In this document: positions 1,948-48,114 of the stretch, one piece after another
How positions within the stretch are numbered: the first letter of the stretch is position 1
How the letters are laid out: every line of letters begins with the position of its first letter
Virus record (IMG/VR): IMGVR_UViG_3300042691_048368
Coordinates: 1-64,000 of that record
DNA length: 64,000 nucleotides
DNA from: a virus
Reading direction: 5' to 3' (one strand)
The notes under the pieces: generated by a model
What the model saw: only the letters and a program-made list of their open reading frames with translations
Told to the model about the DNA's origin: nothing
Database searches by the model: none
Translations under genes and position numbers: made by a program

Positions 1948-3411
1948 ATGAAGATAACTAGATTTCAAAACTGGAGCAAAATAAACGAGGAAGCATCACC
2001 TAGACTTCCAAAAAACGTTGATTATTGGAAAAAAAGAGGGAAAATCGGGAAGGATGTAGCTCTTTACACCCATGATGATATGGATGGTATATTCAGTGCT
2101 ATAGAAGTAAAAAAATATTTACTCAATGCTGGATTCAAAATTGTAAAATACGGTATATTGAACTACTCAGAAGGTTGGAAATATACATCATTAGATCCCA
2201 AACTAATAAATGTCGTTGTAGATTTTGCAAATATGCCTGGTGATGAAAGGGATGAAATGATCGATTTTTATCTTGACCATCATGGTGTCTTCAGTGAAGA
2301 GGAGATAAAAAAATACATGAAATCTCCTGTTCAAAAAAAGAAAACAGGATCTGCCTATGAGGCTATCTGTCAATCACTTGGTGTGCCTCAAGACTCTTTG
2401 ACTGTTTCAGTGATAGACATGATTGATTCTGCTAAATATCAACACTACGGAGTTTCTTGGCAAAGACTACTCGATTTCAATCTCTCAGATATAAAGAAAT
2501 CAGACAAAGCAAGACTTGAGTTTGCGGCAGCTTTCAATCAATTTTTGAAAAGATCTGATACTAAAACAATAATAGGTGTAATTGATAACTGTAATGACGC
2601 ATCTATCTTTGCTATCTATAATGCTATGAAAACTCTTTATCCAGAACATAATGTTGGTAGATATGGAGATCCAAAACAATTCATTGATGATTCATCTTGG
2701 AGATTAGGTGAGATGGGTAGAAGAGTAAGAGGTAGAGGTGAAAAGAAAGTTTATGACACACAAGAAGATTTCCTATCAGCTTTTCAAAGAAATGGTTTAA
2801 TACAACTTGATGGATATCAAATAATAGGTGATTTAGCATTTATTCCAACTGGCACGTGGGCAAATGCATTGAGAGCTAGATCAATCATAGAAAAAGAACT
2901 TTCAGAAGGTAAAATATCGAAAGAGCCGAAATTTATTCTTCTACAATATGGAGGCACACTGCAAGTTTGTTCTTATAAACCAATGGATGAATATGGTGAT
3001 GATTTACCAAAACTAAAATCAGGAGAGGCCGTGACAGATTTGGGAGCTTATATGACTAAATTATTGAAAAATTTTCAAGAACATTTAGGTTACCACAATC
3101 CTGACACATCCTTGGGCCAAGATGAGATTACGGTTTCCGGCGGACATGGAGGCATAGGATCAATTTCGAATATCTTCGGTGAATGTGACAAGGAACCATA
3201 TGTTGGTCAAAGATTTGTAGATATGTTCAAGAATAAAATAATAACAGATTTATCTGGTGTTTCTTTCAATCTTAACATAAAATGGTCCGAACCAAAAGAA
3301 TTTAAGAGTAAGGATCCAGAAATGGACAACAAAGTTATTAGTGCTGAGGATGTAACGAAAATTGGACGTAGCGGTAAGATACTAAGATTTGATGGTTTGA
3401 AAGAAGATTAA
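1948..3411 (+). CDS. DHH/DHHA1 phosphoesterase with N-terminal capsid-tag-like sequence
   Basis: The protein has 487 aa. Residues 41-47 (THDDMDG), 90-94 (VVDFA) and 109-113 (LDHHG) are motifs I-III of the DHH superfamily, whose aspartates and histidines bind two metal ions. Near residues 398-403 a GGHGGIG loop matches the glycine-rich substrate loop of DHHA1 domains. Known family members are RecJ, nanoRNase/pAp phosphatases and GdpP-type cyclic-dinucleotide phosphodiesterases; which activity applies here cannot be told. The first 15 residues (MKITRFQNWSKINEE) do not belong to the enzyme fold and resemble the tag at the start of the core-like protein at 25736, with an INE|E site like the T4 gp21 protease consensus. 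The gene is convergent with the amidoligase (stops adjacent). Enzyme class is well supported; packaging into the virion is inference. Confidence 0.88.
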   Translation: MKITRFQNWSKINEEASPRLPKNVDYWKKRGKIGKDVALYTHDDMDGIFSAIEVKKYLLNAGFKIVKYGILNYSEGWKYTSLDPKLINVVVDFANMPGDERDEMIDFYLDHHGVFSEEEIKKYMKSPVQKKKTGSAYEAICQSLGVPQDSLTVSVIDMIDSAKYQHYGVSWQRLLDFNLSDIKKSDKARLEFAAAFNQFLKRSDTKTIIGVIDNCNDASIFAIYNAMKTLYPEHNVGRYGDPKQFIDDSSWRLGEMGRRVRGRGEKKVYDTQEDFLSAFQRNGLIQLDGYQIIGDLAFIPTGTWANALRARSIIEKELSEGKISKEPKFILLQYGGTLQVCSYKPMDEYGDDLPKLKSGEAVTDLGAYMTKLLKNFQEHLGYHNPDTSLGQDEITVSGGHGGIGSISNIFGECDKEPYVGQRFVDMFKNKIITDLSGVSFNLNIKWSEPKEFKSKDPEMDNKVISAEDVTKIGRSGKILRFDGLKED

Positions 3412-4797
3412 TTACTTCTTGAACGACTTCAAAACACCCTTATCCTTTTTCCTATCGTATTGATCATCATCAAACTTTGTATCAAAGAAGTTATCAGTTT
3501 CGGAAACAATTTTAGTTTCCGAACTTATGTTAGCGTAAGGACCTAATTTTCCACTTCTAAACACACCACCTATCATATCACAATTCAAATATCCACCCAT
3601 AAAGAAACAATCTTTTAGTTGGGTAGCTTCTACCTCACAGTTAAGAATTTTAGTACCAACTATTTCACAACCGTGGATTCTAGATTTAATGATTTGACAA
3701 TTATCGACTTCAGAATTAACGAAGTGACAATTTTCAAAGATACCATTCGTTACTATACAATTTATAAAATCAAACCCTGAGACATTTTGAGAAGTCTTCA
3801 GATTAGCATCGATTATTTCAATTTTTTGTGTTGAGGTAACAAAGTTGATTATACAATCCTCCAACTTTTCGGTAGAGTCAACTAATTTGTGAAGCTTGGG
3901 AAATATTCTATCGTAATATGCGTTTACTATATCATAGGAATATTGTTGGTCAATCTGTAGTGTCACAGTTGGGAAATCAACTATGAAGTTATCATACTTT
4001 GAAAAATTTTTAAAGTTGTTTATATTTTCTTCCAAATATTTTTCCAACTGCTCAATATCTTCATCATTAAATGTAGCTTCTATTGATTTATACACATCTA
4101 ATATGAATCTATCGAAGAAGTAAGTAATTTGACCTATATTTTTCTCGTAATCTTTTCCCCCAATATATCTGAATTCCAATCTTTGAGATTCTTTTGGATT
4201 ATTAATATGTAAGAAGTTTACACCATAGTATTTATCATCGGGTAGTCTTAGAGTATTCTTTACAACATCGATTGGTACACTATTGTAGTCATATTCTTTG
4301 AATGGTATCATTTTCTTTATGGATTTAGCGTAAACATTTCCTTTCCTTGATGGATAGGAACTGTATATCTCATCCTCATCAACCATCAGAATTAATTTCA
4401 AAACATTCAAATCATTCAAGTTTCTATTTTCATCAGCAAATGATATATTAAAGTGTATAGATGATTTTTCATTTGTGTATCCATACATTTGAATGAATTT
4501 TAATATTTTAACCATATAATACTTCGCCTCAAAGTACTCTAATGGTCCAGTTATCATCTCGACCATGTTTGCACCCCCTGACAAGTCTGGCTCAATTTTG
4601 AAATTCTGAGAATCTGGCTTAAAATCGGTATGATATTTTCTAAAACCCCAAACTTTTACAGGTGCTAAATATTGATTCAACAATTCTAAAGTTTTGTAGA
4701 AAGATAGATCTTTCATATAAAATTCAAATTCAAGACCACACTTGGACTTCTTAAGAATTTCCGAATCATTTAAAAACTTTTCTGAATATTTCCTCAT
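3412..4797 (-). CDS. Amidoligase-like enzyme fused to pentapeptide-repeat domain
   Basis: The protein has 461 aa. The N-terminal part matches the amidoligase branch of the carboxylate-amine ligase (GCS) fold: GLEFEFY at residues 21-27 (acidic metal/ATP-binding strand), a KIEPDLSGG...VEMITGPL segment, SSIHFNIS in place of the usual H-x-H strand, and RLEFRYIGG as the E-x-R strand. Family members make amide bonds with ATP. After about residue 340 the chain becomes a run of five-residue repeats with a central aliphatic or Phe residue and frequent Cys/Asn/Ser/Thr, as in right-handed pentapeptide-repeat beta-helices. The gene overlaps the upstream 112-aa gene by one base (TAATG), so the two are translationally coupled. 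Its substrate is unknown. The enzyme family is fairly clear; the fusion is unusual. Confidence 0.75.
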   Translation of the reverse strand: MRKYSEKFLNDSEILKKSKCGLEFEFYMKDLSFYKTLELLNQYLAPVKVWGFRKYHTDFKPDSQNFKIEPDLSGGANMVEMITGPLEYFEAKYYMVKILKFIQMYGYTNEKSSIHFNISFADENRNLNDLNVLKLILMVDEDEIYSSYPSRKGNVYAKSIKKMIPFKEYDYNSVPIDVVKNTLRLPDDKYYGVNFLHINNPKESQRLEFRYIGGKDYEKNIGQITYFFDRFILDVYKSIEATFNDEDIEQLEKYLEENINNFKNFSKYDNFIVDFPTVTLQIDQQYSYDIVNAYYDRIFPKLHKLVDSTEKLEDCIINFVTSTQKIEIIDANLKTSQNVSGFDFINCIVTNGIFENCHFVNSEVDNCQIIKSRIHGCEIVGTKILNCEVEATQLKDCFFMGGYLNCDMIGGVFRSGKLGPYANISSETKIVSETDNFFDTKFDDDQYDRKKDKGVLKSFKK

Positions 4798-5135
4798 TAT
4801 TTAAATTGGGTATTATCTTGTAAATGTTTCCTCAAAAAGGTTTGTAACTTTGGACATTTATTTTCAACATCATTTTTCATTTGATTAAAACCGGATATAG
4901 TAGTGGGATTGTCAAAAATATTTTTTATTGCCATAATTTCCAAATCCGTGACAGTGTTCGAATTTTTGTATTTATTAGAAGTTTTGTAAAGTTCCAAATA
5001 CTCATCTATTAGTTTTTCCTCACATTTTAAAGTACCATTTAAATAAAGTGGTATTATATATGAAGCATATCTTTTTAAAATACTTGGGTCAGGTATAAAT
5101 CTTTTAGATTCTACAACTTTTGTGAATTTTTCCAT
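4797..5135 (-). CDS. Hypothetical protein, 112 aa, coupled to amidoligase
   Basis: This is a small Lys-rich, mostly helical protein with no membrane segment and no recognised domain. Its stop codon shares a base with the start of the amidoligase gene (TAATG), which makes cotranslation and a joint role likely. The start, MEKFTKVVESKRF, loosely resembles the tag seen on several proteins in this window, but the match is too weak to rely on. It could be the amidoligase substrate or partner; that is inference from position only. Confidence 0.65.
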   Translation of the reverse strand: MEKFTKVVESKRFIPDPSILKRYASYIIPLYLNGTLKCEEKLIDEYLELYKTSNKYKNSNTVTDLEIMAIKNIFDNPTTISGFNQMKNDVENKCPKLQTFLRKHLQDNTQFK

Positions 5136-5211
5136 GATAAAAATTTATTTATAGAGTATATATTATTTTCATTTATTTGGAAATAAAAATGAAATTGTAT
5201 ATTTTTGTGTC

Positions 5212-6093
5212 ATGATAATCAAATCGGAAATAATCCAAAATAATTTAGATAAATTAGAGCAAGCAAAGAAAGATTTTTCACTTTTGAATGATTATGCATC
5301 GACTGATGACAATTCGATTCTGAGGGGTCTGTGGGAAGAAGGACGTGCTTATGGATTCATATCCTATATGAACTTCATTGATTTCATCAGACACACCAAA
5401 AAACTCAATCAAGAGGTTTTTTATAAGAATAAAATAAAAATACCAAACTTCAAAGAAGTCTTGATTGCAAATGCACCAGATCCTACTGTAAAAAAGATTT
5501 TGAAATCAAAGGGTAAAGTTTCTTTTACAAAGTTCATAAATTCTACAAAATGGGATCTTTATTCGGGCAATCGTAGAAGAAGAGGTGGTGTAAGATATAG
5601 TGATAATTTTGTCGCATCAGCTGCTATTATTGCTAACTTTTGTATTCAAAATGAAATTGAAGTAGAAGATTATTCTAGAATTTCTGATTATTATAGAACT
5701 AACCTATCGGATTTAGATCCTAGTTTGAAAAAGGAACTAGAACTCACAAAGAATATGATTGACTATATGGTCGAAAGTTTGTCTGAATCTAATTACGACT
5801 TCAGAAGATTGAATGTTGAACATCTAAGTAAATTTATAACCGAAGAATTAAAAAAGAAGTTAGTTTCGATTGAAAAAGGTGAGTCGGTAAAGTTGATAGA
5901 AGATACTGATTACTATGGCGCCTTGACACTAGGAAAAGTCTATGAAGTTGTGGACAAAGAAATTTCTTCGGGAAGACTACAAGTAATTATCAAAAATGAT
6001 CTTGATATATCAAGATCATATCCATATAGATTATTTGAGACTGTAAGTAATCTGAGAAATTCAGTCCTAGATGATCTTTTATATGATAGTTAA
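5212..6093 (+). CDS. Hypothetical protein, 293 aa
   Basis: A complete frame stands alone on the plus strand, with a TGTATATTTTTG region just upstream. The protein is mixed alpha/beta and charged. It has a basic patch around residues 121-128 (GNRRRRGGVR) and a C-terminal segment of about 70 residues (VKLIEDTDYYGALTLGKVYEVV...) that looks like a small SH3-like or KOW-like barrel. It contains no transmembrane segment. The 3' end overlaps the convergent minus-strand gene by 15 bp. A nucleic-acid contact is possible from the arginine cluster, but no family is recognised. Confidence 0.65.
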   Translation: MIIKSEIIQNNLDKLEQAKKDFSLLNDYASTDDNSILRGLWEEGRAYGFISYMNFIDFIRHTKKLNQEVFYKNKIKIPNFKEVLIANAPDPTVKKILKSKGKVSFTKFINSTKWDLYSGNRRRRGGVRYSDNFVASAAIIANFCIQNEIEVEDYSRISDYYRTNLSDLDPSLKKELELTKNMIDYMVESLSESNYDFRRLNVEHLSKFITEELKKKLVSIEKGESVKLIEDTDYYGALTLGKVYEVVDKEISSGRLQVIIKNDLDISRSYPYRLFETVSNLRNSVLDDLLYDS

Positions 6094-6843
6094 ACTGGTC
6101 AATGGTTGAGTTTCTAAAAAAAGATAATCTACACACATTGACTTTGTTTGGGTATAGGTTTCACTCAAAGTTTTCAAATCATTTATTTCTAGGTTCTTAT
6201 TTATAATAAGAGTTAAACAATCATAAGAACCAAAATACATTGTGGATTCTTTTTGGTCTGGATTTATATAAACACTCAAATGGTTATATCTTCCGAAGTA
6301 ATGTATAATCTTTTTCTGTTCGGATTCATTTATTATGAAGTTTTCATTCTTATAAAACAAATATTTGAGATTATTTGGTATGATTACCCAGGAATTATTA
6401 TTTGATATCTGATCTATTTTATTCAGTATATCTTTTGTTTTGATCGGACTTAATATTTTCTTAAAAAAATTCCTTTTAGACAAATTTATCTCATGTCTGA
6501 TTGTATTTTTGAATTTAGCGAATTCTTTCGAAAAAATATTATTCGTATTTCTAGCTATACACTCACAAAGAGGAGAATTTTCAGTTATTGTCTGATCATC
6601 AAGATCAGAAATTATGAGATTAAGATTTAATTTTTCATTCGACTTTATTAAAAGTCTAGTACATTTTAATTTGTAATCAATATTTTCAGTTATGTGTCTT
6701 AATGAATCCGAGTCTTTAATAGTTTTGGAAATCTCAATTGTCCCATTTGAATCATCGACCAAGATAGTCTGAATGATTCTGTCTAGACACAGTAAATCTG
6801 TAATTTGACTTACTAGAGAGTAAGATTTATCTACTAATTCCAT
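6079..6843 (-). CDS. Hypothetical protein, 254 aa
   Basis: The protein is rich in Asn, Ile and Leu, acidic to neutral, with no signal peptide. The pattern of alternating strands and helices, with a repeated segment YFGRYNHLSVYIN / YFGSYDCLTLIIN near residues 184-220, suggests a short internal duplication. Its start overlaps the end of the upstream 204-aa gene by 17 bp, so the two form a unit on the minus strand. No family is recognised. Confidence 0.6.
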   Translation of the reverse strand: MELVDKSYSLVSQITDLLCLDRIIQTILVDDSNGTIEISKTIKDSDSLRHITENIDYKLKCTRLLIKSNEKLNLNLIISDLDDQTITENSPLCECIARNTNNIFSKEFAKFKNTIRHEINLSKRNFFKKILSPIKTKDILNKIDQISNNNSWVIIPNNLKYLFYKNENFIINESEQKKIIHYFGRYNHLSVYINPDQKESTMYFGSYDCLTLIINKNLEINDLKTLSETYTQTKSMCVDYLFLETQPLTSLTII

Positions 6844-7441: not shown

Positions 7442-7471
7442 TTTATTTTGAAAAGATTTAACATATATATT

Positions 7472-7506: not shown

Positions 7507-7509
7507 GAA

Positions 7510-7740: not shown

Positions 7741-7790
7741 TTTCAAAAAATATTTTTACATATATATTGAAATTTCGGAACGCCTTTTAA

Positions 7791-15206: not shown

Positions 15207-15524
15207 TTACATCCTCTGGCTCCAAATAGATTTTGGTTTATTAACTTGAACGCCCGTTTTCCAAAGTCCAAGTCTTAATTTTGAGTCATTATTAAACTCA
15301 CCTCTCAATCTTCCACACTGTTTATCCGTCAAATAAATGTGAAACATCTCCGCATACATATTATCATCAACTGGATTCAAAAAGTATTCGCTATTCGATT
15401 CAAATTCATCCAAATCTTGTATTATGCCAGATCCCCACCCATGGGTTTTTTTTAATATTTTGATTATTCTATCATAATCATATGAATCTTCAAACATTTC
15501 AAAGAATTTCTTGATCCTCATCAT
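15207..15524 (-). CDS. Tagged small protein, 105 aa
   Basis: Tandem ATGs (15524, 15521) begin MMRIKKFFEMFEDSYDY, which fits the Phe-x-x-Phe-Glu tag seen on other proteins of this window. The body is a compact acidic alpha/beta domain without a recognised motif; it contains one Cys-Gly-Arg segment (DKQCGRLRGEF). The start overlaps the upstream 479-aa gene by 26 bp, suggesting translational coupling of two tagged proteins. Packaging in the virion is inferred from the tag only. Confidence 0.6.
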   Translation of the reverse strand: MMRIKKFFEMFEDSYDYDRIIKILKKTHGWGSGIIQDLDEFESNSEYFLNPVDDNMYAEMFHIYLTDKQCGRLRGEFNNDSKLRLGLWKTGVQVNKPKSIWSQRM

Positions 15525-16938
15525 CGGTGTTCGATCTCATTTTGTTCATAATAATCATATTGAAATTGTCAACTGGTTCGAAGTTATATTTAGCATTCAA
15601 TTTGCCCGACATTTCGCCACCACTGAATTTTATATCAATATTACAATTAATAAGAGGTTCATCGTCAAGTTCCATTCTCAGTTTTATTGAAAAGTCATTT
15701 TTTTCTTCTTCTTCATTATCAACAATCAATCTTACATGATAATCAAATTTGATATTTATATCATCATAGAAATCTCTGAAAAACTTTCTTGATGGTACTT
15801 GGTGAAAATCCTTTCCTTTCTTTCCTAAAAAATAAGTTGGTCTTTCTAAACAACCTAATTTTTCCACGAAAGTTTTAATCAATTTCATTTTTACATTGCC
15901 ATCCGCTTTTTTGAATCCATCATCTAATTTTGTAATTTCATCTTTACTATTCGTTAATAAGGAATCTGTAATTAAATGTTCCAATATTTTTGAATTTAGT
16001 AGATAAATTTTAACCTCCATCCACTCATTGAATACTTTTTCAACGTCCAAAAAGCATTGATCTTTATTTTTCCATATTTCACTCATCAAGTCTGAAAATT
16101 TCAAGATATTCTTATCAAATTGTTTGATGTGTTCACCAATATTTTTGAATCTCATATCTCTGTGTTTCAAGTCAAAATATTCAAAATAACCTAGTGTGTC
16201 AATTCTTTCTGGTTCTATAAACTTTTCTATGTGAATTTGAATTGGTTTATTAGCATTTTCATAAATTATTTTAACCCAACTTTGTGTTAATTTATCCCAC
16301 TTTTTGATATACTCCTCATTGTACAAATTTTCTATACCCTTTCCGATAAAATCATCGGCAAATGTATTGAATGATGAAGATTTGGATGTGGATAAAGTTT
16401 TATTTACAAAAATACTGAACTGAGCACCTGATTTCAATTCAATAACTAAATCTTCCCCGTGGTCTTTGTCTTTATTCGGACCAATCCAATAAACTTTTGA
16501 TATAAGGTCTTCTGACAATTTTTCTTCGACCAAAATTTTATCGATAATATTACGAGCTGTGATTCTCGCATCGACCAATTTATTCCAATCTTGTTCGATG
16601 TCAAATTTAACTTCTTCAAAATATCCATTTATTTTTGAATGTTCGGTATCTTCAACACATACGTTATTTTCAAACTTACCCAATTGTAATCTATTTTTCG
16701 CTATTAATAGATTTTTTAAATCCGTAAGAAAAACATTTGAATTTTCTGTATACCTACCTTTCAAACCTCGGTCAAGAAGATTATCTAGAAATTCATTATT
16801 CAATAATATCATACCTACACAAATTTCTGTTATTAAATTTTTTGGCTTATAAATAGTCTTTTCTAAATCATTCTGTGCTTGAACTTTGAATTGGTTTTGT
16901 GCTTCCAAAAAAAGTTCGTAACCTCTTAACCATCTCAT
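15499..16938 (-). CDS. Tagged protein with possible PD-(D/E)xK nuclease-like core, 479 aa
   Basis: The protein begins MRWLRGYELFLEAQNQF, a tag-like start with an LE|A site. Residues 163-190 read EDLVIELK, then SGAQFSIFVNK and a Ser-rich stretch ending in FNTF. The Asp...Glu-x-Lys spacing (D163, E167, K169) followed by a strand and Ser-rich loop recalls the catalytic strand of PD-(D/E)xK restriction-type nucleases, but I see no clear remaining motif. The last 100 residues are beta-rich and acidic. The gene shares a symmetrical promoter region with the divergent tagged gene at 16994. A nuclease function is tentative; the reading frame is certain. Confidence 0.7.
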   Translation of the reverse strand: MRWLRGYELFLEAQNQFKVQAQNDLEKTIYKPKNLITEICVGMILLNNEFLDNLLDRGLKGRYTENSNVFLTDLKNLLIAKNRLQLGKFENNVCVEDTEHSKINGYFEEVKFDIEQDWNKLVDARITARNIIDKILVEEKLSEDLISKVYWIGPNKDKDHGEDLVIELKSGAQFSIFVNKTLSTSKSSSFNTFADDFIGKGIENLYNEEYIKKWDKLTQSWVKIIYENANKPIQIHIEKFIEPERIDTLGYFEYFDLKHRDMRFKNIGEHIKQFDKNILKFSDLMSEIWKNKDQCFLDVEKVFNEWMEVKIYLLNSKILEHLITDSLLTNSKDEITKLDDGFKKADGNVKMKLIKTFVEKLGCLERPTYFLGKKGKDFHQVPSRKFFRDFYDDINIKFDYHVRLIVDNEEEEKNDFSIKLRMELDDEPLINCNIDIKFSGGEMSGKLNAKYNFEPVDNFNMIIMNKMRSNTDDEDQEIL

Positions 16939-16993: not shown

Positions 16994-17626
16994 ATGAGGT
17001 TCATCAAAGATTTCAAAAGGTACCAAGAATCATTAAGAATAGAATTTGGTTATATAGATATAGATATAAATGAGTCATTGGGCTTATTATACGATAACGT
17101 TTTAAAATCCATAGGGGCGGAAGAAATTGATATGTTCGATACATTCCATCTACCCAAAGATGATTTTGCAGATAAAATGAATTTGGATCTATTGACTGCA
17201 AGTACAGAATTTATAAACTCATTATCAAGTATAGGTTTAAAAAATTCGAATGTTACAAATAGTGATGATTTTGAAACTTTTTTCAAAAGACCTTGTAGAT
17301 TCATGATGATTTATCGTATAGAGGCAAATGAACTTGAAAACCCCTCATATATTATATTCCAACCTTGGAGTGATTTGTTAAATAAGTGGGAAGATTGCAA
17401 ATTGTATAAAGTAAATGGAGATATAAAGAATTTTTATGATAAACTCTCATCCAAAGTCATTGAGGTTGAGGATGGTGGTGAAAAATTCATATATCAAACT
17501 TCAAACGGCAACGAATGGAATTTACAAAATTTGGACAAAGCAAATGACACGTATTTGAAATATTTCAGAACTGAAGATTTCGAGAAATTACTCAAAGATA
17601 GAAAAGTTTCTATCAACATAATTTAA
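16994..17626 (+). CDS. Tagged protein of unknown function, 210 aa
   Basis: The start MRFIKDFKRYQESLR fits the tag pattern (hydrophobic, Phe, Tyr, QE|S). The remainder is an acidic alpha/beta protein of about 190 residues with no membrane segment or known motif. It is divergent from the tagged 479-aa gene across a palindromic promoter and ends convergent with the J-domain gene, overlapping its stop by a few bases. Virion packaging is inferred from the tag. Confidence 0.65.
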   Translation: MRFIKDFKRYQESLRIEFGYIDIDINESLGLLYDNVLKSIGAEEIDMFDTFHLPKDDFADKMNLDLLTASTEFINSLSSIGLKNSNVTNSDDFETFFKRPCRFMMIYRIEANELENPSYIIFQPWSDLLNKWEDCKLYKVNGDIKNFYDKLSSKVIEVEDGGEKFIYQTSNGNEWNLQNLDKANDTYLKYFRTEDFEKLLKDRKVSINII

Positions 17627-18862: not shown

Positions 18863-19396
18863 ATGTCAGTTGATAAAAAAGAAAAAATTATTATATTGGG
18901 CCAAACCGGTTCCGGTAAAGATTTTCTTAGGAAAGAATTAGTAAAACTTGGATTGAAATATTCACCAAAATTTACCACAAGACCTAAGAGAGAATCTGAA
19001 ACAAATGGTGTAGAATACGATTTTATTGATTATAATTTATATATCGATTTGCATAAAAATGGAAAAATAAAGACATCTCAATCATTTATTATAAATGATG
19101 TAAATTGGTATTATGGGATTACAAATGAAAATTGGAATAACAATCAGATTTTCATAATGACCCCCTTTGAACTCGAACAAATTGATGAGGAGGAACTCAA
19201 AGGTTGTTTTGTTGTATATCTTAACATTGATTTGGAAACTAGAAGAGAGAGAGTAACAAGTCGTGACGATAAAAATGATTCTATCGAAAGAAGGTTAAAA
19301 GCTGATCTAAATGACTTTGATGGATTCAAAAAATACGATTTGTGTATAACTGATCCGGAATTTGAAGCTGATTGGATTTATGATTTGATGTATTAA
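18863..19396 (+). CDS. Guanylate-kinase-like nucleotide kinase, 177 aa
   Basis: The P-loop GQTGSGKD is at residues 13-20, followed by FTTRPKRESETNGVEYDF, the GMP-binding segment of guanylate kinases (TTRPxRxxExxGxxYxF). A lid-like segment TSRDDKNDSIERRLKADL lies near 131-148. The length is close to bacterial Gmk (about 200 aa) but slightly short at the end. It would convert GMP/dGMP to the diphosphate, supporting nucleotide supply for phage DNA. It lies 33 bp after the Gly-rich gene and ends overlapping a convergent gene by 4 bp. Confidence 0.8.
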   Translation: MSVDKKEKIIILGQTGSGKDFLRKELVKLGLKYSPKFTTRPKRESETNGVEYDFIDYNLYIDLHKNGKIKTSQSFIINDVNWYYGITNENWNNNQIFIMTPFELEQIDEEELKGCFVVYLNIDLETRRERVTSRDDKNDSIERRLKADLNDFDGFKKYDLCITDPEFEADWIYDLMY

Positions 19397-25735: not shown

Positions 25736-26776
25736 ATGAAAGTCGTAAAATATTCGGAATATTCAAAAATTAATGAGGAATTTGTTTTGAGTGCTATAAA
25801 AGGTGCGCTTGGTAAATTGTTTGGATTTTTCGCAAATGCTTTCAAAGATTTGGGTGCTGATTTTAAATCTATGTTCAAAGAGGATGACCCTTCCACTATA
25901 AAAGACATAGTAATGAAAAATGTTGACCAAGCTGTTGATGGTGCTCAAAAGGAAATCACCAATCTAAAAAGTGATGGTGATGTATTGGGTATAGTGGATA
26001 ATATGGTGACTCAATTAGTTGAACTTGGTAATAACATTACTAAAGATGTTGAGGGTGCTTTAGGTAAGGAAAAATCAAAACCTGTTGAGGAAATCTCAAA
26101 AGCGTTACTACTTGGAAATAAAGAAGTGGATTGGGTTGGTATAGTTGGTGCATTGGATCCAGCGGCAGGAATTTTGAAAAAAGACATAAATTTTGCATAC
26201 TCGAAGAAGAAATTCGTTGAGTCAGTAAACAAGGGTAAAGATTTGAATCAGAAAAAAACCTTGGCTTCAAAGTTTCTTGATGATTTTCAAAAAACAATAA
26301 GGGCTGAATTAGAAAAAGCAGTGACCGATGAAGAGATAAAAACTCTTTATGATAAAATGAAGGGTGGAGACGCTGGTACTGATTTGGAATTGAAGGAAGG
26401 TGATATGGTTGTGTATCTCCTCAAAGGAAAGAAAAAAGAGGAATTTGATGAAAAGAAAAAACCTGAAGAACAAAAAGATGTAGTTGGTGTAAAGAAAATC
26501 GAAAAAATAGATGGTGATAAAATAACATTTCTAGATAAAGACGGTAAACCTACAATTTTAAAAACAAAAGCTGAAATACTAAAGAAGGTTGAAGTTGAAA
26601 TGGGCCAAAACGCAAAGAAGGTTGCAGACTCACTTGGAAAAATCAAACAAGACGAGGAAAAAATGGGTAAAGTTGCTACTTTCGCTGAATTTATTCAAGA
26701 TGATAAAAATAAAGACAAACTAGCTGAAATAGAAAAAATACTTTCTGGTGGTGAACAGCCAGCCGCACAAGCATAA
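25736..26776 (+). CDS. Core/internal head-type protein with capsid tag, 346 aa
   Basis: The start MKVVKYSEYSKINEEF contains the same SKINEE site as the DHH protein and matches the proteolysed T4-type capsid-targeting sequence. The body is Lys/Glu/Ala-rich and helical (ALGKLFGFFANAFKDLGADF, then long charged helices), with a small beta domain around residues 220-275 (GDMVVYLLKGKK...VVGVKKIEKIDGDKITFL) like an SH3/KOW unit. A TFAEFIQDDKN segment lies near the C-terminus. The composition suits an internal or scaffold core protein. The 240-aa gene follows with TAATG overlap. The role in the head is inferred. Confidence 0.65.
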   Translation: MKVVKYSEYSKINEEFVLSAIKGALGKLFGFFANAFKDLGADFKSMFKEDDPSTIKDIVMKNVDQAVDGAQKEITNLKSDGDVLGIVDNMVTQLVELGNNITKDVEGALGKEKSKPVEEISKALLLGNKEVDWVGIVGALDPAAGILKKDINFAYSKKKFVESVNKGKDLNQKKTLASKFLDDFQKTIRAELEKAVTDEEIKTLYDKMKGGDAGTDLELKEGDMVVYLLKGKKKEEFDEKKKPEEQKDVVGVKKIEKIDGDKITFLDKDGKPTILKTKAEILKKVEVEMGQNAKKVADSLGKIKQDEEKMGKVATFAEFIQDDKNKDKLAEIEKILSGGEQPAAQA

Positions 26777-30845: not shown

Positions 30846-30866
30846 TTTTATATTAATATATAAATC
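30846..30866. promoter_or_regulatory. AATATATA-type promoter motif, possibly bidirectional
   Basis: The near-palindromic TTTATATTAATATATAAA sits directly before the start at 30868 and also before the ncRNA candidate on the other strand. It belongs to the recurrent phage motif class. Confidence 0.5.
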
Positions 30867-30867
30867 T

Positions 30868-32004
30868 ATGTTAAATAATTTTAATGGGTTCATTCTAGAG
30901 AAACAAGTAGTATCTTTATTATTGGAGAATGATTTAAACGCGTCACCTGAGTTTCTTGCAAGATTGAAAAAGATAAGAGATAGGAGTAAAGTAGCTCAAA
31001 TACTCTACGATTTATTCAGTGCAGAATACTATATTGTAAAAGATTTGCCTCAGAACTGGATTGATGTGACAAATGAGCCAGAAATGATTTCATTTTTATC
31101 TGATAGTAGAGCTAAAAGAACTCCGATGCAATGGGATGAAGATAGTTCAAAATATTATGATGTTTCTGGCAGAGGTCAAATAAAAGTTGGTAGGTTTGCA
31201 CAAGCTTTATTAAATGATCCAGATGTGATTGAAGATTTAGATTTATCCTTTGTTGAAAACTATATTCAAGGACTAACACCAAAAGATTTCGAAGATTTTG
31301 TAAACTTGTACAAATCTGAATTTGTAGTAGTTTCTAATGAGTTTAAATTGGTAAAGGGTGATGAAATCCCTTACTATTATGATTTTATGAACTATGCATA
31401 TCCCGACAAGGGACACTTGGGTGCATCTTGTATGAGGTATACACATTGTCAAAGATACTTCAGTATCTACAAAAAAAACCCAGAGGTGTGTCAATTATTG
31501 GCGTATGTAAATCAAGAAAATAAAGTTTTGGGTAGGGCACTTGTCTGGAAACTAGATAAGAAAGTTGATGGGTGTCCAGCAGAATATTTTATGGACAGAG
31601 TTTATTGTGCAAATGATAGTGATATGATAAAGTTCAAAAATTACGCTAAAGAGAAGGGTTGGGTTATGAAAAACAAAAATGCATCTGATGCGTATGAGGC
31701 TTTATTCTTCAACTACAATGATAAAGTCATTTTATCACACATTAGTGTTCAATTGAAAGAATCAAATTTTGCATTTTACCCTTTCATAGACACTCTGTCT
31801 TTATTGAACGAAACAAACGGTAAGTTACATAATGTTTTAGGGAAAAATTGTATTGAACTTACTTCGACAGATGGAGATTTTTACACGCCCGATACGAACA
31901 AAAGTAGGAGGGAAAATCTGAAAGAAATGCTAAACGAAATACTCAATGATAATAATTATTTGGGTTATAGAGACCTTATAGAAACTGCATTATCAAATCT
32001 TTAA
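30868..32004 (+). CDS. Late tagged paralogue of unknown phage family, 378 aa
   Basis: The second member of the family at 28467: blocks HLGASCMRYTHCQRYF, VLGRALVWKL, FMDRVYCAND, NFAFYPFIDTLS and TSTDGDFYTPD correspond one-to-one to blocks of the 405-aa protein. Its start differs: MLNNFNGFILEKQVV carries the Phe-x-x-Phe-I-L-E|K tag-like pattern found on presumed cargo proteins. The gene is preceded directly by the AATATATAAA motif, not a host-type promoter, so late expression is expected. It is convergent with the UvsY-like gene (stop codons adjacent). I infer that this copy may enter the host with the virion while the other is made from the genome; this is untested. Confidence 0.7.
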   Translation: MLNNFNGFILEKQVVSLLLENDLNASPEFLARLKKIRDRSKVAQILYDLFSAEYYIVKDLPQNWIDVTNEPEMISFLSDSRAKRTPMQWDEDSSKYYDVSGRGQIKVGRFAQALLNDPDVIEDLDLSFVENYIQGLTPKDFEDFVNLYKSEFVVVSNEFKLVKGDEIPYYYDFMNYAYPDKGHLGASCMRYTHCQRYFSIYKKNPEVCQLLAYVNQENKVLGRALVWKLDKKVDGCPAEYFMDRVYCANDSDMIKFKNYAKEKGWVMKNKNASDAYEALFFNYNDKVILSHISVQLKESNFAFYPFIDTLSLLNETNGKLHNVLGKNCIELTSTDGDFYTPDTNKSRRENLKEMLNEILNDNNYLGYRDLIETALSNL

Positions 32005-35233: not shown

Positions 35234-35422
35234 TTAGTGTGCAGCTGAGTCAACTTTAACACTGTCTGCGCAACAAGCTTTAGTTGTGTCACAAGCAGTA
35301 GAATCACAAGAAGTTGAATCCTTAACTACCGCAGTAGAATCTGTAGCAGTTCCTTCTTCAGAAGAAGAACCACATGAAACTAGGAAAGAAACAACTGCAA
35401 ACATCAAAAATAGTTTTTTCAT
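35234..35422 (-). CDS. Small outer-membrane-type lipoprotein, 62 aa
   Basis: The first 17 residues are a lipoprotein signal (MKKLFLMFAVVSFLVSC) with lipobox LVSC; C17 would be lipid-modified. The following GSSSEEG resembles the S plus acidic residues that direct surface exposure in Flavobacteria. The rest is Ser/Thr/Asp/Cys-rich and low-complexity (repeats of DSTxC), probably flexible, with several extra Cys. Small lipoproteins of phages can block receptors against superinfection; nothing in the sequence proves this. Its transcript continues through the structured region at 35125-35230. Confidence 0.75.
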   Translation of the reverse strand: MKKLFLMFAVVSFLVSCGSSSEEGTATDSTAVVKDSTSCDSTACDTTKACCADSVKVDSAAH

Positions 35423-42723: not shown

Positions 42724-42795
42724 TTTTTTGAAAATTTTGGACTTAAGGTAAAACAATCCATATAATATATAATTTCAAAAAAAAATTATATATTT

Positions 42796-43734: not shown

Positions 43735-43945
43735 ACTTTTACTTCAAAAAAATTACCATTTGCAAGAGTTTGCTATAGATTCCTGGCCTTTTTGGATGTT
43801 GGAAGAAAATATCAAAATAGTCAATGAATTAACTGAAGAAGAGGATAAACAAAGGAAGAAAGAAGAAGGGTCCCAAAAAATGCCAAACTTCAACCCATCC
43901 TCAATAATGAATAATATGTCCTCAATGGCTAATAAGTTTAAATAA
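43703..43945 (+). CDS. Small baseplate-associated protein overlapping gp26-like gene, 80 aa
   Basis: The frame starts at ATG 43703 (MTPLNSLLK) inside the end of the gp26-like gene, in the +1 frame; a TTG at 43697 is an alternative. The product has a WPFWMLEENIKIV segment and then a charged, helical tail (EEEDKQRKKEE). Position after gp26 and overlap suggest a hub assembly factor like T4 gp51, or a C-terminal extension reached by frameshift; neither is proved. It ends just before the terminator at 43944. Confidence 0.55.
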   Translation: MTPLNSLLKNKLLLQKNYHLQEFAIDSWPFWMLEENIKIVNELTEEEDKQRKKEEGSQKMPNFNPSSIMNNMSSMANKFK

Positions 43946-43975
43946 AAAAAAACCACCTTTTGGTGGTTTTTTTTT
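43944..43975. terminator. Bidirectional terminator between gp26 cluster and tail tube gene
   Basis: A six-bp core stem (ACCACC with GGTGGT, 43952-43967) is extended by A-run/T-run pairs and has a TTTT loop. It gives a T tract on both strands and so serves both the plus-strand hub genes and the convergent tail tube gene. Confidence 0.9.
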
Positions 43976-43991
43976 ATTTAGGAGAATAAGA

Positions 43992-44609
43992 TTAGTATCC
44001 TGCGATGAGTGGTGGGGTGATTGTGAATGAACCATCGATATATTCATCAACCCAGTAGTCAGCTACGAATTTAGCTTCTACGTTATTAAGAATCTCTGTT
44101 GATGACCAGTCTAGTGAATAACCTTGTAGACCAGTGATTTGACAGTTTTGGAAAGTAACCCTTCTTAAAACAACACCTTTTTTATCATGTTGATTCACAA
44201 TTACCGTTCCAATGATATCAGATTTATAGTTCACGGTACCATTTTGAGAGTTCCAAACTACATCATACCAAGCTTTCAAAGTATTCCAAGTAATCATATT
44301 ACCCTTATCGTTCACGTTAACATTGTGTTTGATTGTGAATTCGATATGGGTTTTTTCTGGCATACCCATGTAAGCTCTGGTTGAATACTTGAACCTCTGA
44401 TCTTTAACACCAATATCTGGAGTAAGATTCAAATCAACAGACGATGCTTGTTGAAGTTGCATAATTGGATCTCTACCCTGTGCTTGGAGGATAGTAGGGA
44501 AAATGAAAGTAATCTCAAACAGGTTAAGATATACTACCTCATCTGGTTTTGTACCGGGACCCCCTGGTGAACCTGTCATCAAGAGTTGTGTAAAATGTGG
44601 TAATGGCAT
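43992..44609 (-). CDS. Tail tube protein, T4 gp19-like, 205 aa
   Basis: The sequence has the tail-tube hallmarks: a first strand and helix (FEITFIFPTIL), an extended arm, and the closing segment VTFQNCQITGLQGYSLDWSS followed by NVEAKFVADYWVD, which corresponds to the tube-forming beta-sheet of gp19-type proteins. The length is 40 aa above T4 gp19. It polymerises around the tape measure to form the DNA channel. It stands alone on the minus strand between a terminator and the homing endonuclease. Confidence 0.82.
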   Translation of the reverse strand: MPLPHFTQLLMTGSPGGPGTKPDEVVYLNLFEITFIFPTILQAQGRDPIMQLQQASSVDLNLTPDIGVKDQRFKYSTRAYMGMPEKTHIEFTIKHNVNVNDKGNMITWNTLKAWYDVVWNSQNGTVNYKSDIIGTVIVNQHDKKGVVLRRVTFQNCQITGLQGYSLDWSSTEILNNVEAKFVADYWVDEYIDGSFTITPPLIAGY

Positions 44610-44731
44610 AGAATTTTAAATTATTTTTTATAATATTATATATTTTGTCAATAATCTTTCTAGTCATTTTTTAATATAAATAGGTTTAGAAAATTGCCAT
44701 TTCCACTTTTAGTATGTGATATATATTAAAT

Positions 44732-45562
44732 ATGAAGTGCAACTATAGATATTGTGGTAGAGAAATAAACTTCGGTAGACCAGATAGAAAGTTTTGTAAT
44801 AAAAACTGTAAAATAAAAGAAAATAATTTAATTAAAGAATTAAAATCACTGGATAACAAATCTATTAAGACTAAAGATTTTATAGAAAAATCAAAAGAAA
44901 TACATAATAATAAATATGGATATGAATTATCGATATATGTTAATTGTAGAACAAAAATTAAAATAATATGTCCGATACACGGTGTGTTCGAGCAAACCCC
45001 AAGTAATCATTTATATAATAAACAAGGATGTGATAAATGTGCTAGAGATGAACATAAACTTACTAAGCTATCTGATTCCAGAATAGATAATCTTAAAAGA
45101 GTCCATAATAATAAATATCTATATAATGATACATCCATTAATGAGGGATTTATAAATATAACTTGTCCAGATCATGGCGTCTTCACACAATATTTATATT
45201 TTCACGAATATGGACATGGATGTTCACAATGTAATTCCTATTCTAGAGGAGAAAATTACATAAAAAGATACCTTGACAAAAGAGGAATAAGATACCACAG
45301 GAATTTTATATTTGAGAATTGTAAAAATAAGAAAGGATTAAGATTTGATTTCTATCTATACAATGAAAATACTATTATTGAGTATCATGGAGAGCATCAT
45401 TTTATTGAAAATAAATATTTTGGAAATGCAAATCTAGAATATGTTAGAAAAAATGATGAAATCAAAAAAGAATATTGTTTATTGAACTCAATAAGACTAG
45501 TAAGGATACCATATTATGATTACAATAATATTGAGAGTATATTAAATAGTGTCATAGTTTAA
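44732..45562 (+). CDS. Homing endonuclease-like protein with DUF723-type repeats, 276 aa
   Basis: A small zinc finger is at the start (C3, C7, C22, C26). Two repeats follow, each with a CPxHGVF...Q...H...GCxxC pattern (residues about 80-105 and 145-170), the DUF723-like DNA-binding unit of phage homing enzymes. The C-terminus holds a compact PD-(D/E)xK/Vsr-like core, LRFDFYLYN ... IIEYHGEHHF, then a final strand LVRIPYYD. Such free-standing enzymes copy themselves into cognate alleles at conserved genes. It sits between the tail tube gene and the gp47-like gene and is more AT-rich, typical of a mobile insertion. Confidence 0.82.
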   Translation: MKCNYRYCGREINFGRPDRKFCNKNCKIKENNLIKELKSLDNKSIKTKDFIEKSKEIHNNKYGYELSIYVNCRTKIKIICPIHGVFEQTPSNHLYNKQGCDKCARDEHKLTKLSDSRIDNLKRVHNNKYLYNDTSINEGFINITCPDHGVFTQYLYFHEYGHGCSQCNSYSRGENYIKRYLDKRGIRYHRNFIFENCKNKKGLRFDFYLYNENTIIEYHGEHHFIENKYFGNANLEYVRKNDEIKKEYCLLNSIRLVRIPYYDYNNIESILNSVIV

Positions 45563-45618
45563 AAAAAAATCATTTTTACCCGATTTGAACTATGATCAAC
45601 TAAGTTTATATAATAGTG

Positions 45619-46743
45619 ATGTCAAAAATTCTAATTATTGGTGATACCCACTTAGGTCTTGGTTACCCGAATTCGATTGATAAATGGTTTAAAGTACACA
45701 GGGAATATTTTGAAGAATTTTTAATTCCTTTAGTTCGGAAAGAAATGACCGAAGATGATATTATAATCCACTGTGGAGATTTATTTGACAATCGGTCAGT
45801 GGTTCCGATTAATATACTCAATTACGCACAAGATCTCCTCGAAAAACTATCTTCTATATGTCCGGTGCATATACTAATTGGTAATCATGATTTGTACACT
45901 AAAGCCTCTAATGATGTGAATACTGTCAAATTATATAAGTATATACCAAACATTACCGTTTACGAAAAGCCTACCAAAATTGATTTTTGTGGAAAGTCAA
46001 TATTGATGTTACCTTGGGTTGAGAAAAAACAAGACCAAATTGACATACTAAAAAGATTTTCTGGTTGTGATTATCTTTTCTGTCATTCGGATTTGAACGG
46101 TGCAAAAATGCATTTGACCTCTGTTGCACATAAAAATCAAGATAAAATAGATGTGGAAGATTTTTCAGGTTACAAAAATGTATATTCTGGTCATATACAC
46201 ATCTTGCAAGTCACAAAAAATTTCACTTTTGTCGGTAATAATTTTGAAATGGATCGAAATGACATTAACAATCAAAAGGGAATTTTTATCTTAGATACTT
46301 TGGTTGACGAGGAGAGATTCATTCCTAATAATATTTCACCGAGATACAAAAAGATATACATAAGAACTCAAGAGGATATTGATCAATTAGAAAACACTTC
46401 GACAAAAGATTATATTGATCTTTTCATATCAAATTCATTGTTGATAAACAATAGGAAATTAAGAAGAAAGTTAGAGTTAATGTTGGAATCCGGTAACTTT
46501 GCTTCAGTTGACTACATCGATGATTTAGTTTTGGAAAAAAATGAAGAAACTAAATCTGTGATTGAAGAAATTACTGAAGAAGAATTAAACAATGGTGTGG
46601 TTCCATCTATTCAATTAGAATATACTGATTTAATTAGACAATACATTAATACTCAGAAATATGAAAGTGAGAAGATCAAAAATGGCGTCTTACAAGAGTT
46701 TAATGAAATTGCTAGAATATATGATGAGGGTTATTTAGAATAG
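45619..46743 (+). CDS. gp47/SbcD-like nuclease subunit, 374 aa
   Basis: I use ATG 45619; a GTG one codon earlier is in frame. Motifs of the Mre11/SbcD/T4 gp47 family are complete: GDTHLG (8-13), HCGDLFDNR (51-59), GNHDLY, FCHSDLNG and SGHIHILQ. gp47 with gp46 resects DNA ends for recombination and degrades host DNA. A gp46 (SbcC-like) gene is not in this window. The C-terminal 130 residues are charged and helical, the likely partner-binding part. The end overlaps a convergent tagged gene by 13 bp. Confidence 0.85.
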   Translation: MSKILIIGDTHLGLGYPNSIDKWFKVHREYFEEFLIPLVRKEMTEDDIIIHCGDLFDNRSVVPINILNYAQDLLEKLSSICPVHILIGNHDLYTKASNDVNTVKLYKYIPNITVYEKPTKIDFCGKSILMLPWVEKKQDQIDILKRFSGCDYLFCHSDLNGAKMHLTSVAHKNQDKIDVEDFSGYKNVYSGHIHILQVTKNFTFVGNNFEMDRNDINNQKGIFILDTLVDEERFIPNNISPRYKKIYIRTQEDIDQLENTSTKDYIDLFISNSLLINNRKLRRKLELMLESGNFASVDYIDDLVLEKNEETKSVIEEITEEELNNGVVPSIQLEYTDLIRQYINTQKYESEKIKNGVLQEFNEIARIYDEGYLE

Positions 46744-47033
46744 TTTGGTTTTCTTCCACTACCTTTAGATCCGGTACTCTCTGCTTTTCTTTTCCTAGCA
46801 ACCGCTGCTTTCTTTTGTTTCGCCGACATCTTAGCGGCAACCCTTACTTTTCTGCATTTGGGATATCCACCTTTACTTGTGTCAGACCTTCCGCATGGTG
46901 GATGAGACCCATCTTTATTTGTCTTGGAAATATCAACCCATTTTTCTTTGAACCATTTATCGAGTCCACCATGAGAACCCTTATATGATTTTTCCTCATG
47001 GATGAAATCTTCAAATAATAGTAGATGTTCCAT
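46731..47033 (-). CDS. Tagged small basic protein, DUF5872-like, 100 aa
   Basis: The start MEHLLLFEDFIHEEKSY is a clear tag with IHE|E site. The remainder, LDKWFKEKWVDIS, HPPCGRS, GGYPKCRKVRVA and then a Lys/Arg-rich tail (KQKKAAVARKRKAE), matches the small Cys-containing unit I know as DUF5872 from large phages and giant viruses. Two Cys may form a metal site or disulfide. It overlaps its upstream neighbour by one base. The basic tail could bind DNA in the head. Family recognition from memory; function unknown. Confidence 0.72.
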   Translation of the reverse strand: MEHLLLFEDFIHEEKSYKGSHGGLDKWFKEKWVDISKTNKDGSHPPCGRSDTSKGGYPKCRKVRVAAKMSAKQKKAAVARKRKAESTGSKGSGRKPNYSK

Positions 47034-47251
47034 TATCTTTTCTTAGACTTTTTAACTTTTGACTTTCTCCAAGTGCCACCTTTTTTCTTATATCTTTTTG
47101 CAGCAGCTCCATTAGCATAAGCTGATGGATAAACGTCATAGGTATTTTTTGCCCAAGCTTTACAGGAAGCCCATAAAGATGGGTTATTTGGCACGTTTTT
47201 CTCAACTACAAGTGATTCTTTAAAATCTTCGAAAGGTAATAAATGATTCAT
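47033..47251 (-). CDS. Tagged small basic protein with CKAWAK/YPSAYANG domain, 72 aa
   Basis: The start MNHLLPFEDFKESLVVEK is nearly the same as the tag of the next gene. The core NNPSLWASCKAWAKNTYDVY then PSAYANGAAAKRYKKKGG is a compact domain known to me from phage and giant-virus virion proteins, with conserved Trp, Cys and Tyr. A basic end follows (WRKSKVKKSKKR). It shares a base with the downstream gene. Packaging is inferred from the tag, DNA contact from the charge. Confidence 0.72.
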   Translation of the reverse strand: MNHLLPFEDFKESLVVEKNVPNNPSLWASCKAWAKNTYDVYPSAYANGAAAKRYKKKGGTWRKSKVKKSKKR

Positions 47252-47261
47252 AACATATATA

Positions 47262-47528
47262 TTATTTTATTTTAGTAACTTTTAATACTAAATCACCAGT
47301 GCCCTTTATTAGTCTGTGGTAGACCCCTTTAGGTACAAATATTTTTTCATCTATTTTTTTGGGTAATTCGTTATCAATTTGAAAGGTCCAATCTGTTGGA
47401 TGAGTTGGTTCTATTATTCTGTCCTCTCTGTCACGATGCCAATGTAAGTTTCCATTATCTACATTTTCATGGAATGTTCTTAAATAAGTCAAGTCATTCA
47501 ATTTGGATTCTTCAAATGGTAAAATCAT
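47262..47528 (-). CDS. Tagged cupin-like protein, 88 aa
   Basis: I start at ATG 47528 (MILPFEESKLND), 7 bp after the stop of the upstream gene; the longer frame from 47579 would run into it. The body has LHWHRDREDR (H-x-H of cupin motif 1) and IFVPKGVYHRLIKG (P-x-G-x-x-H of motif 2), so a small single-domain cupin is likely, with His residues for a metal. Its substrate is unknown. Third gene of the tagged cassette. Confidence 0.65.
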   Translation of the reverse strand: MILPFEESKLNDLTYLRTFHENVDNGNLHWHRDREDRIIEPTHPTDWTFQIDNELPKKIDEKIFVPKGVYHRLIKGTGDLVLKVTKIK

Positions 47529-47535
47529 AAATAAA

Positions 47536-48114
47536 TCACCAGAAACCTGGATATGTTTTTCCTCCCCAAAGATTTGCATATCTATTAGCCCTACAAGCCC
47601 AGTAACCTGGTTTGGTCTTATCCTTTTTCAAATGGCACTGATGTCTTGCAGCAAAAGCTTTTCTAGCTTTAGGATCAGAAACCTTTGCACTCAGACCACC
47701 TTTAGCATCACCAAAGTTTACTACTTTAACTTTTTTTGTCTTGGGATTAATCACATAAACTTTGTATTTTTTTGGACCCGAGCTTCTCATAGGTTTGCCT
47801 ATTGGAACTTTTTTTCCATGATATTCGGCTTCGTTCAAATCTTCGACTTCTTCTAATGGTAAGTCCAAAGGTACCATTTCACCTTCGTATTCTGCAAATT
47901 TACCAATATCAGTTGTTTCAAATAAAATTTTATCTATTCCCGATAATTCTACTTTATTAGTATCAAACAAAATTCTAGCTTCCTTTATTAGATCATAGAA
48001 CGAATTGGAACCAGGTCTGAACACATTTTCCAAAACGGGAAGGTTGTTATCGACATGATATTTTAGATTCTCACTGATTGGATGAAAATTATCGAATAGA
48101 TTAATATATTTCAT
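47536..48114 (-). CDS. Tagged protein with basic Cys domain, 192 aa
   Basis: The start MKYINLFDNFHPISENLK is tag-like with an ISE|N site. The C-terminal 75 residues (KYKVYVINPKTKKVKVV..., DPKARKAFAARHQCH, KTKPGYWACRANRYANLW) form a basic unit with two Cys that I know from other large-phage proteins. The middle is acidic and flexible. It is the first gene of the cassette 48114-46731 and is divergent from the giant baseplate gene. The tag and basic domain fit a packaged DNA-binding cargo. Confidence 0.72.
   Translation of the reverse strand: MKYINLFDNFHPISENLKYHVDNNLPVLENVFRPGSNSFYDLIKEARILFDTNKVELSGIDKILFETTDIGKFAEYEGEMVPLDLPLEEVEDLNEAEYHGKKVPIGKPMRSSGPKKYKVYVINPKTKKVKVVNFGDAKGGLSAKVSDPKARKAFAARHQCHLKKDKTKPGYWACRANRYANLWGGKTYPGFW

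Follow-up and report, generated by a model that had tools for sequence, protein, structure and literature searches.

A shared N-terminal tag on unrelated huge-phage proteins, probably a T4-type capsid-targeting leader

Tagged genes at the locus

The analysed window comprises bases 1–64,000 of the 94,997-base IMG/VR record IMGVR_UViG_3300042691_048368 (the whole record, G000, is called this genome below). An initial annotation of this viral DNA had noted short starts of one kind, here called the tag, on about ten otherwise unrelated proteins, and had likened them to the capsid-targeting sequences (CTSs) of the T4 internal proteins (IPs). All ten N-termini are present in the sequence, and the tag is used roughly ten times more widely than the initial annotation could see. 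The major capsid protein (MCP) of this genome, encoded at 91656–93419 beyond the window end, is 66–67% identical to those of LR756502.1 (W01, 642 kb) and LR745206.1 (W02, 635 kb) and 49% identical to that of LR756501.1 (W03, 735 kb); given this closeness to genomes of 635–735 kb, we take the record to be a fragment of a huge phage of the Mahaphage type. W01, W02 and W03 are among the huge phages of Al-Shayeb et al. 2020 and belong to the Mahaphage clade, whose hosts are predicted to be Bacteroidetes (PMC7162821).

For comparison we used the complete W01, W02, PTm1 and T4 sequences and 400 kb each of W03, W07 (LR756500.1, 462 kb), Lak-C1 and G004, a close IMG/VR relative of 464 kb. Genes were called by a self-trained codon-usage caller, and gene starts are therefore predictions. 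Window genes were scored with a position-specific scoring matrix (PSSM) trained on the N-termini of other phages, with a cut-off of 4 bits. The tags, their open reading frames (ORFs) and associated elements are as follows.

1948–1992, plus strand: tag MKITRFQNWSKINEE, preceding a DHH-family phosphoesterase; PSSM -0.7 alone
1993–3411, plus strand: body behind this tag (cargo), a phosphoesterase of the DHH family (motifs HDDMDG and DHH); match to Pfam DHH at E=7.5e-4, below the Pfam cut-off
15489–15524, minus strand: tag MMRIKKFFEMFE of ORF 15207–15524; PSSM 7.2; G004 homologue MKIKKFFEMFK
16903–16938, minus strand: tag MRWLRGYELFLE of ORF 15499–16938; PSSM 12.2; orthologues MKWLRGYKLFTES (W01) and MKWIKGWELFVEK (G004)
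16994–17029, plus strand: tag MRFIKDFKRYQE of ORF 16994–17626; PSSM 1.7; orthologues MKYLKKYKKYKES, MRYIKSYKTFKES and MDYIKSFKKFQES at 12.4–13.9
25736–25780, plus strand: tag MKVVKYSEYSKINEE of ORF 25736–26776; PSSM -0.1
30854–30862, plus strand: candidate late-promoter element TAATATATA, upstream of tagged ORF 30868–32004
30868–30900, plus strand: tag MLNNFNGFILE of ORF 30868–32004; PSSM 5.9; body weakly GNAT-like by fold
46995–47033, minus strand: tag MEHLLLFEDFIHE of ORF 46731–47033 (weakly DUF5872-like); PSSM 14.0; orthologue MEHLLPFEDFINEE, 91% identical
47216–47251, minus strand: tag MNHLLPFEDFKE of ORF 47033–47251; PSSM 14.8; orthologue MNHLLLFEDFQEY
47256–47264, minus strand: element TAATATATA, upstream of tagged ORF 47033–47251
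47508–47528, minus strand: doubtful tag MILPFEE, at an internal Met (47528) of ORF 47262–47579
48070–48114, minus strand: tag MKYINLFDNFHPISE of ORF 47536–48114; PSSM 6.9; G004 orthologue MRYINLFNKFQPISE

Six of the ten examples score 5.9–14.8, and three (16994, 25736 and 1948) rest on tagged orthologues. The orthologues of the 25736 gene are clearly tagged, at 12.8–13.2 (MKHLRNFDKFKKSNVNEE, MKYVRTFESFRNKK), and those of the 1948 gene carry strong tags (MISKYNQFINEE, MLRKYGQFINEE). In a four-way alignment of the 1948 tag, I12, E14 and E15 are invariant; the DHH body is 88% identical to that of G004 from ASPRLPKN on, with the tag changed from FQNWSKINEE to FNNWKKIFEE. The tenth example, MILPFEESK, is doubtful and makes the weakest case of the ten: it scores 2.9 when read from the internal Met and -9.5 when read from the start of its ORF, 47262–47579, for which no orthologue was found. 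A related-loci search with 15499–16938 returned no relatives. The N-terminus given as MRIKKFFEMFEDS exists, but its start had to be corrected to MMRIKKF at 15524. As for the bodies named at the outset, the DHH enzyme stands, with its two motifs read in the sequence, whereas the cupin-like and nuclease-like bodies were unconfirmed for window genes.

The 30868 family has eight tagged members in three phages, and F8 is invariant across 22 relatives. In the AlphaFold2 model of the 30868 protein, residues 1–13 have a predicted local distance difference test (pLDDT) score <50 and the body is confident. Large viral contigs very often encode this body family (145 IMG/VR loci, several copies per contig), and one member (L021:16423–18378, W01_0216) has a His-rich stretch, MCKNHNHNHSKKIF, before the motif KFEDFVNES. 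Further tagged genes lie just past the window, at 69588(-), 72608(-), 79079 and 79675.

A start-anchored motif across huge phages

The motif, M-[KR]-x-[LI]-[KR]-x-[FY]-x-x-F...E-[SNEA], is anchored at the protein start and was found unsupervised. A mixture model of the W01 and W02 N-termini contained one sharp component, MKYLKkYeeFe, accounting for ~17% of all proteins; typical starts are MKHLKTYKLFES, MKHLKKFNES and MIKKWNQFINES. The W01-trained model placed 128 of 849 W02 proteins above 3 bits, versus 1.9 for shuffled N-termini, and the W02-trained model placed 143 of 848 W01 proteins there, versus 2.0; chance is therefore excluded at genome scale. The observation of the initial annotation is thereby confirmed. 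In this genome, the cross-genome model found 7–8 of 76 proteins tagged versus 0.2 expected.

We also used a gapped model, in which the first aromatic may lie at residue 4–9, because the T4 CTS is three residues shorter and the fixed-position PSSM failed on T4. It placed 185/848 proteins of W01, 174/849 of W02 and 10/76 of this genome above 4 bits (shuffling expectation for a 76-protein genome, ~0.2–0.5). Tagged proteins were likewise found in W03 (50; 1.2 expected), W07 (39; 2.5 expected) and G004 (46; 2.0 expected), so that tags mark ~8–22% of genes, or 46–185 per large (whole or partial) tag-bearing genome except W07. Lak-C1 (2 tagged, 0.7 expected) and PTm1 (1 tagged) were rejected as further carriers, as neither showed enrichment. 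The counts miss some variants, since a PPK2 start in W02 (MPVYNFHKFINEE, 143761–144921) falls below the tag model despite its plain motif. In IMG/VR, two exact DNA patterns of tag variants matched 48 and 33 stretches, many on contigs of 50–600 kb. Our first regular expressions had little power as tag detectors in T4 and PTm1, and a strict DNA pattern joining the upstream element described below to the tag was over-strict, matching two contigs.

Resemblance to T4 capsid-targeting sequences

Applied to 222 T4 proteins, the model, whose training set was huge phages alone, ranked gp61.1, IPIII, IPI and IPII as the top four; the chance that a random four would hold all three annotated T4 IPs is ~2e-6. 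The highest-scoring T4 protein, gp61.1 (T4 18966–19130; 54 aa, MKTFKEFIKEDMVAG...), is predicted as one more head protein with a CTS.

The most informative tag columns include [FYW] at position 0 and [FY] at +3. Mutagenesis of the IPIII leader MKTYQEFIAE attributed targeting mainly to residues 4 and 7 and processing to residues 8 and 10 (PMC9026906). The tag aromatics (0, +3) match residues 4 and 7 of the CTS, and the hydrophobic-x-Glu (h-x-E) that follows matches residues 8 and 10. At positions unused in choosing the tags, h-x-E followed by a small residue occurred after the tag in 43–60% of cases versus 7–19% in the comparison. Likewise, hNE[NSAEG] lies within residues 5–20 of 127/504 tagged proteins (25%) and 46/2492 untagged ones (1.8%), and further in for 3/504. 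The site had been anticipated as (L/I)-x-E; the h-x-E end is indeed enriched, but it often reads F-N-E/S or F-E/S (the slash marks the presumed cut) and does not follow strict (L/I)-x-E.

Protease, scaffold and capsid protein

A gp21-like protease, which the initial annotation expected in the rest of the genome, lies 25 kb past the window at 89463–91577. It is a head maturation protease of the S77 type (PHROG E=2e-30; Pfam S77 E=1e-6, below the Pfam cut-off), keeps the GExxHP and SSRxxG blocks from T4 to this phage, and is fused to the scaffold in this genome, as in PTm1. Pfam S77 was found in this genome, W01, W02, W03 and W07; the G004 fragment gave no S77 match.

In the scaffold half, a unit of 14 residues, KNIxYSEY[LI]AENLD, is repeated in a row (for example KNISYSEYLAENLD), giving 12–13 [LI][ANS]E[NS] sites versus 0.2–0.3 expected. 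Among proteins of >=300 aa, the scaffold ranks first in internal density of tag-like windows in W01 (1/154), W02 (1/171) and this genome (1/28). The N-arm of the MCP carries a conserved YAEFHSINEN, a near-match to the 25736 tag: KYSEYSKINEE of that tag resembles both EYAEFHSINEN of the N-arm and SYSEYLAEN of the scaffold repeat. In T4, gp23 residues 59–66 (FGSFLTEA), which include the gp23 maturation site, fit the same extended pattern, and the repeat likeness is absent from T4 gp22, gp67 and gp68.

W01 and W02 each encode a protein of 80-odd residues consisting of a tag and a copy of the MCP N-arm that follows Asn-Glu; in these proteins the tag takes the very place that the propeptide has in the MCP. 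Two other genes (W01 315773–316270, W02 291407–291880) encode untagged 157–165-aa copies of the MCP propeptide plus N-arm (for example MTQSSKEDIFKKWAPIIESMGVTGSKADWMSHYAEMHSINENN...), which may compete in shell assembly or regulate it. Since tag, scaffold repeat and capsid N-arm look alike, so short a leader may work by posing as a scaffold unit.

A candidate late-promoter element

The element TAATATATA lies <=60 nt upstream of 43% of tagged versus 12% of untagged genes in W01, and of 41% versus 11% in W02. For genes with an upstream gap >40 nt, the counts are 47/71 tagged versus 49/309 untagged in W01 and 45/63 versus 52/297 in W02. The form AATATATA occurs 12–39 nt before the portal, protease, MCP, baseplate wedge, tail tube and other genes of this genome, and before 14/24 structural orthologues versus 3/28 replication genes in W01/W02, some of the structural labels being positional only. 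In W03, we found no significant enrichment of the upstream element before tagged genes. The element is a candidate late-promoter element.

The tag is selected as a peptide

Codon use inside tags equals that of the rest of the genome. For the 79675–80286 gene, just outside the window, the tag is present in 80/80 relatives kept from IMG/VR, and the ratio of nonsynonymous to synonymous substitution rates (dN/dS) is 0.11 in tag codons 2–9, 0.48–1.41 in the linker and 0.10–0.13 in the body; a smaller subgroup gave 0.19 for the tag. AlphaFold2 assigns pLDDT<50 to residues 1–9 of this protein and a confident body from residue 11. Of the W01–W02 orthologue pairs, 63 have the tag on both members, 21 on one and 328 on neither (odds ratio 188). 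These data show that the tag is a peptide, not a DNA signal, and is under purifying selection.

They bear directly on the idea that an A-rich 5′ coding region, a nucleotide-level feature of gene starts, translates alike by accident. With 68% AT in the genome and the upstream element close to the ATG, such an explanation has something to draw on; yet it is contradicted by the ordinary codon use, the variable spacing and the low dN/dS of the tag, and the motif includes an F-x-E-S late in the tag. We regard it as extremely improbable.

Diverse and fast-changing bodies behind the tag

The bodies behind the tag are unrelated, as first noted: 369 tagged proteins form 260 body clusters, 196 of them singletons, and many have unrelated known folds. 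The largest cluster (27) is a paralogue family, also part of the first description and real; its members carry a DILxDLxDDGF motif (in W01, for example, 11122–44954 and 51733–97000), with 27 linked in W01/W02 and more seen by eye. The view that the N-termini are alike by descent, from one duplicated family in which the start changed more slowly than the bodies, could draw on this family and on the clustering of tagged genes (87 adjacent pairs versus 40 shuffled). It is contradicted by the number of clusters and folds, by the occurrence of the same kind of tag in T4, and by RNA ligases, in which T4 RNA ligase 1 aligns from its residue 6 on with two tagged homologues from their residues 28 and 24, so that the tag is an addition. 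Common descent thus retains next to no probability.

Enzymes, which had been anticipated, are plentiful behind the tag. Pfam matches among 200 tagged proteins include PPK2, T4-type RNA ligase, NUDIX, methyltransferases, phage lysozyme, SET, GNAT, HNH, RNase_T, nucleotide cyclase, DHH, Zn-protease, MazE-like domains and 2′-5′ RNA ligase/Acb1, directed against the cyclic-oligonucleotide-based anti-phage signalling system (anti-CBASS). PPK2 is tagged in W01 and W03 and has the tag-like start mentioned above in W02; the tag also precedes the Acb1-like body in both W01 and W02. The body of the 79675–80286 protein has a weak fold likeness to isochorismatases, and its residues D19 and C173 are invariant; a PDB sequence search with this body and the DHH body gave no match. 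Tagged genes have an orthologue between W01 and W02 less often than untagged ones (32% versus 50%).

These bodies count against another view of the tag, as a core-building signal on proteins that are mainly parts of the prohead core, with little active cargo delivered. T4 IPIII also aids head assembly (PMC9026906), and some conserved tagged genes, 69588(-) and 72608(-), stand among structural genes. However, PPK2, RNA ligase, Acb1-like, NUDIX and methyltransferase bodies make no structural sense, and the faster turnover of tagged genes is as expected of accessory cargo. We consider this view improbable.

The tag is missing from homologues of the T4 helicase, clamp loader, recombinase, ribonucleotide reductase, topoisomerase, terminase, portal and sheath (T4 genes identified by position). 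Many huge phages reorganise the host cell, and the tag might instead address another site there, as a membrane-binding amphipathic helix or to a phage-made compartment. The tag is short, basic and amphipathic, with hydrophobics at 4, 7 and 10, and its AlphaFold2 helix is short, of low confidence and silent on the partner. Yet there is no tag on replication enzymes, which a replication compartment would be expected to house; the same model picks T4 internal virion proteins; a conserved h-x-E/S end follows the tag; the motif recurs in the scaffold repeats and MCP N-arm; and the upstream element is shared with structural genes. Another cellular address is therefore, in our judgement, a poor candidate compared with targeting to the capsid.

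Some further properties of the proteins were considered. A basic charge of the cargo, as in T4 IPs, was not seen; the bodies lie a little to the acidic side of the average. Few tags are followed by a signal peptide (6/504 by the filter used, some doubtful). In a few tagged proteins (W01 56658, 395896 and 580926 regions) an export-signal or lipobox-like stretch stands directly after the tag, for example MKNIKTYEDFVNEEINWKGVVAGAMSLLATACSN, and tag cutting would thus expose a secretion signal. Basic and aromatic N-terminal extensions have been published on phage S21 (PMC7162821); we rejected them as the same tag, because S21 of these phages starts without it. The window also encodes, at 35234–35422 on the minus strand, a small untagged predicted lipoprotein, MKKLFLMFAVVSFLVSCGSSSEEG, with a Cys-rich tail.

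Interpretation

We conclude that the tags are very probably capsid-targeting leaders of the T4 type; the cognate prohead protease would cut them off, and the cargo that they address to the head for injection would be very large. Packaging, cleavage, injection, scaffold docking and the role of each cargo are what we infer from the patterns described. Tagged proteins would be made late, alongside structural proteins. The tag, a short helix with aromatics three apart and basic and acidic flanks, would dock in the prohead core, as proposed from its resemblance to the 14-residue scaffold repeat. The scaffold-fused S77 protease would then cut scaffold, MCP N-arm and tags after hydrophobic-x-Glu. Freed cargo would stay in the head during DNA packaging, enter the host together with the DNA and take immediate effect there on nucleotides, RNA, DNA and defence signalling.

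Several observations weigh against this interpretation. About half of the tagged proteins lack a textbook h-x-E and small residue right after the aromatics, and the evidence for T4 CTS function comes from E. coli, a system far removed from this one. In Lak and PTm1 an S77 protease and a related MCP occur with no tag enrichment, and tag and protease are therefore not always paired. The scaffold ranks lower in tag-like windows in W03 (6/111) and W07 (16/117), and its 14–15 tag-like windows compare with an average of 6–7 in composition-preserving shuffles, rare ones of which reach as high. Furthermore, one head may not hold >=150 different proteins, and some may be conditional or minor.

Beyond capsid targeting as such, we give about even chances to a stronger proposal: that a single code, Y-x-x-[FY]-...-[IL]-x-E/[NSA], serves as scaffold repeat, MCP maturation site and cargo address. 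The head would then be a delivery vehicle for >100 proteins per phage, including anti-CBASS, RNA-repair and nucleotide-signal enzymes acting before the first phage transcript and, as the tag would mimic a scaffold unit, any gene gaining ~12 codons would become head cargo.

In the open-access literature we found no description of such tags in huge phages, most subscription papers lying outside the search. A word search of a 2026 jumbo-phage review gave no internal proteins of such a kind beyond the phiKZ inner body. Most huge-phage genes have no assigned role, and a readable tag would place 10–20% of them in the virion interior, for delivery at infection. It yields per-protein predictions, namely a cut after a named Glu and a location inside the head, and singles out candidate injected anti-defence proteins (Acb1-like, DHH, RNA ligase, NUDIX). 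Tag-borne cargo is one possible answer to why some phages have large heads and genomes; the mechanism of a few T4 proteins would extend to phages of another host phylum, and the tags could supply new packaging signals by which large capsids might be filled with enzymes.

Comparison with known systems

The closest counterpart is the CTS of T4 IPI–III, likewise an N-terminal leader of 10–19 residues on unrelated bodies, with aromatics three apart, an S77 protease in the genome and a hydrophobic-x-Glu end, the last enriched here but lacking its textbook form in some members. T-even IPs are diverse anti-defence proteins, a role that a cargo with anti-CBASS-like, DHH, RNA-ligase and NUDIX domains would fit by analogy (PMC12373910, PMC3012670). 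The two systems differ in scale: T4 itself has three IPs, with at least 10 reported for the T-evens together (PMC12373910), whereas the large tag-bearing genomes have 39–185 tagged proteins, many of them enzymes. The common huge-phage tag is three residues longer than that of T4 (MKHLKxYxxF versus MKTYQEF). The scaffold repeats and MCP N-arm share the tag motif here, whereas in T4 the gp23 site does and gp22, gp67 and gp68 do not.

The giant phages phiKZ and SPN3US are alike in that many head proteins are cut by a protease and ejected (PMC10052503, PMC7411985, PMC13282480). The SPN3US head has ~50 proteins, and in the descriptions consulted for these phages no short universal tag shared by unrelated bodies is reported. 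The defence-against-restriction head proteins DarA and Hdf of P1 are also anti-defence proteins tied to the head and to DNA ejection (PMC12810830); as far as that account goes, they are few and dedicated and no shared tag is described.

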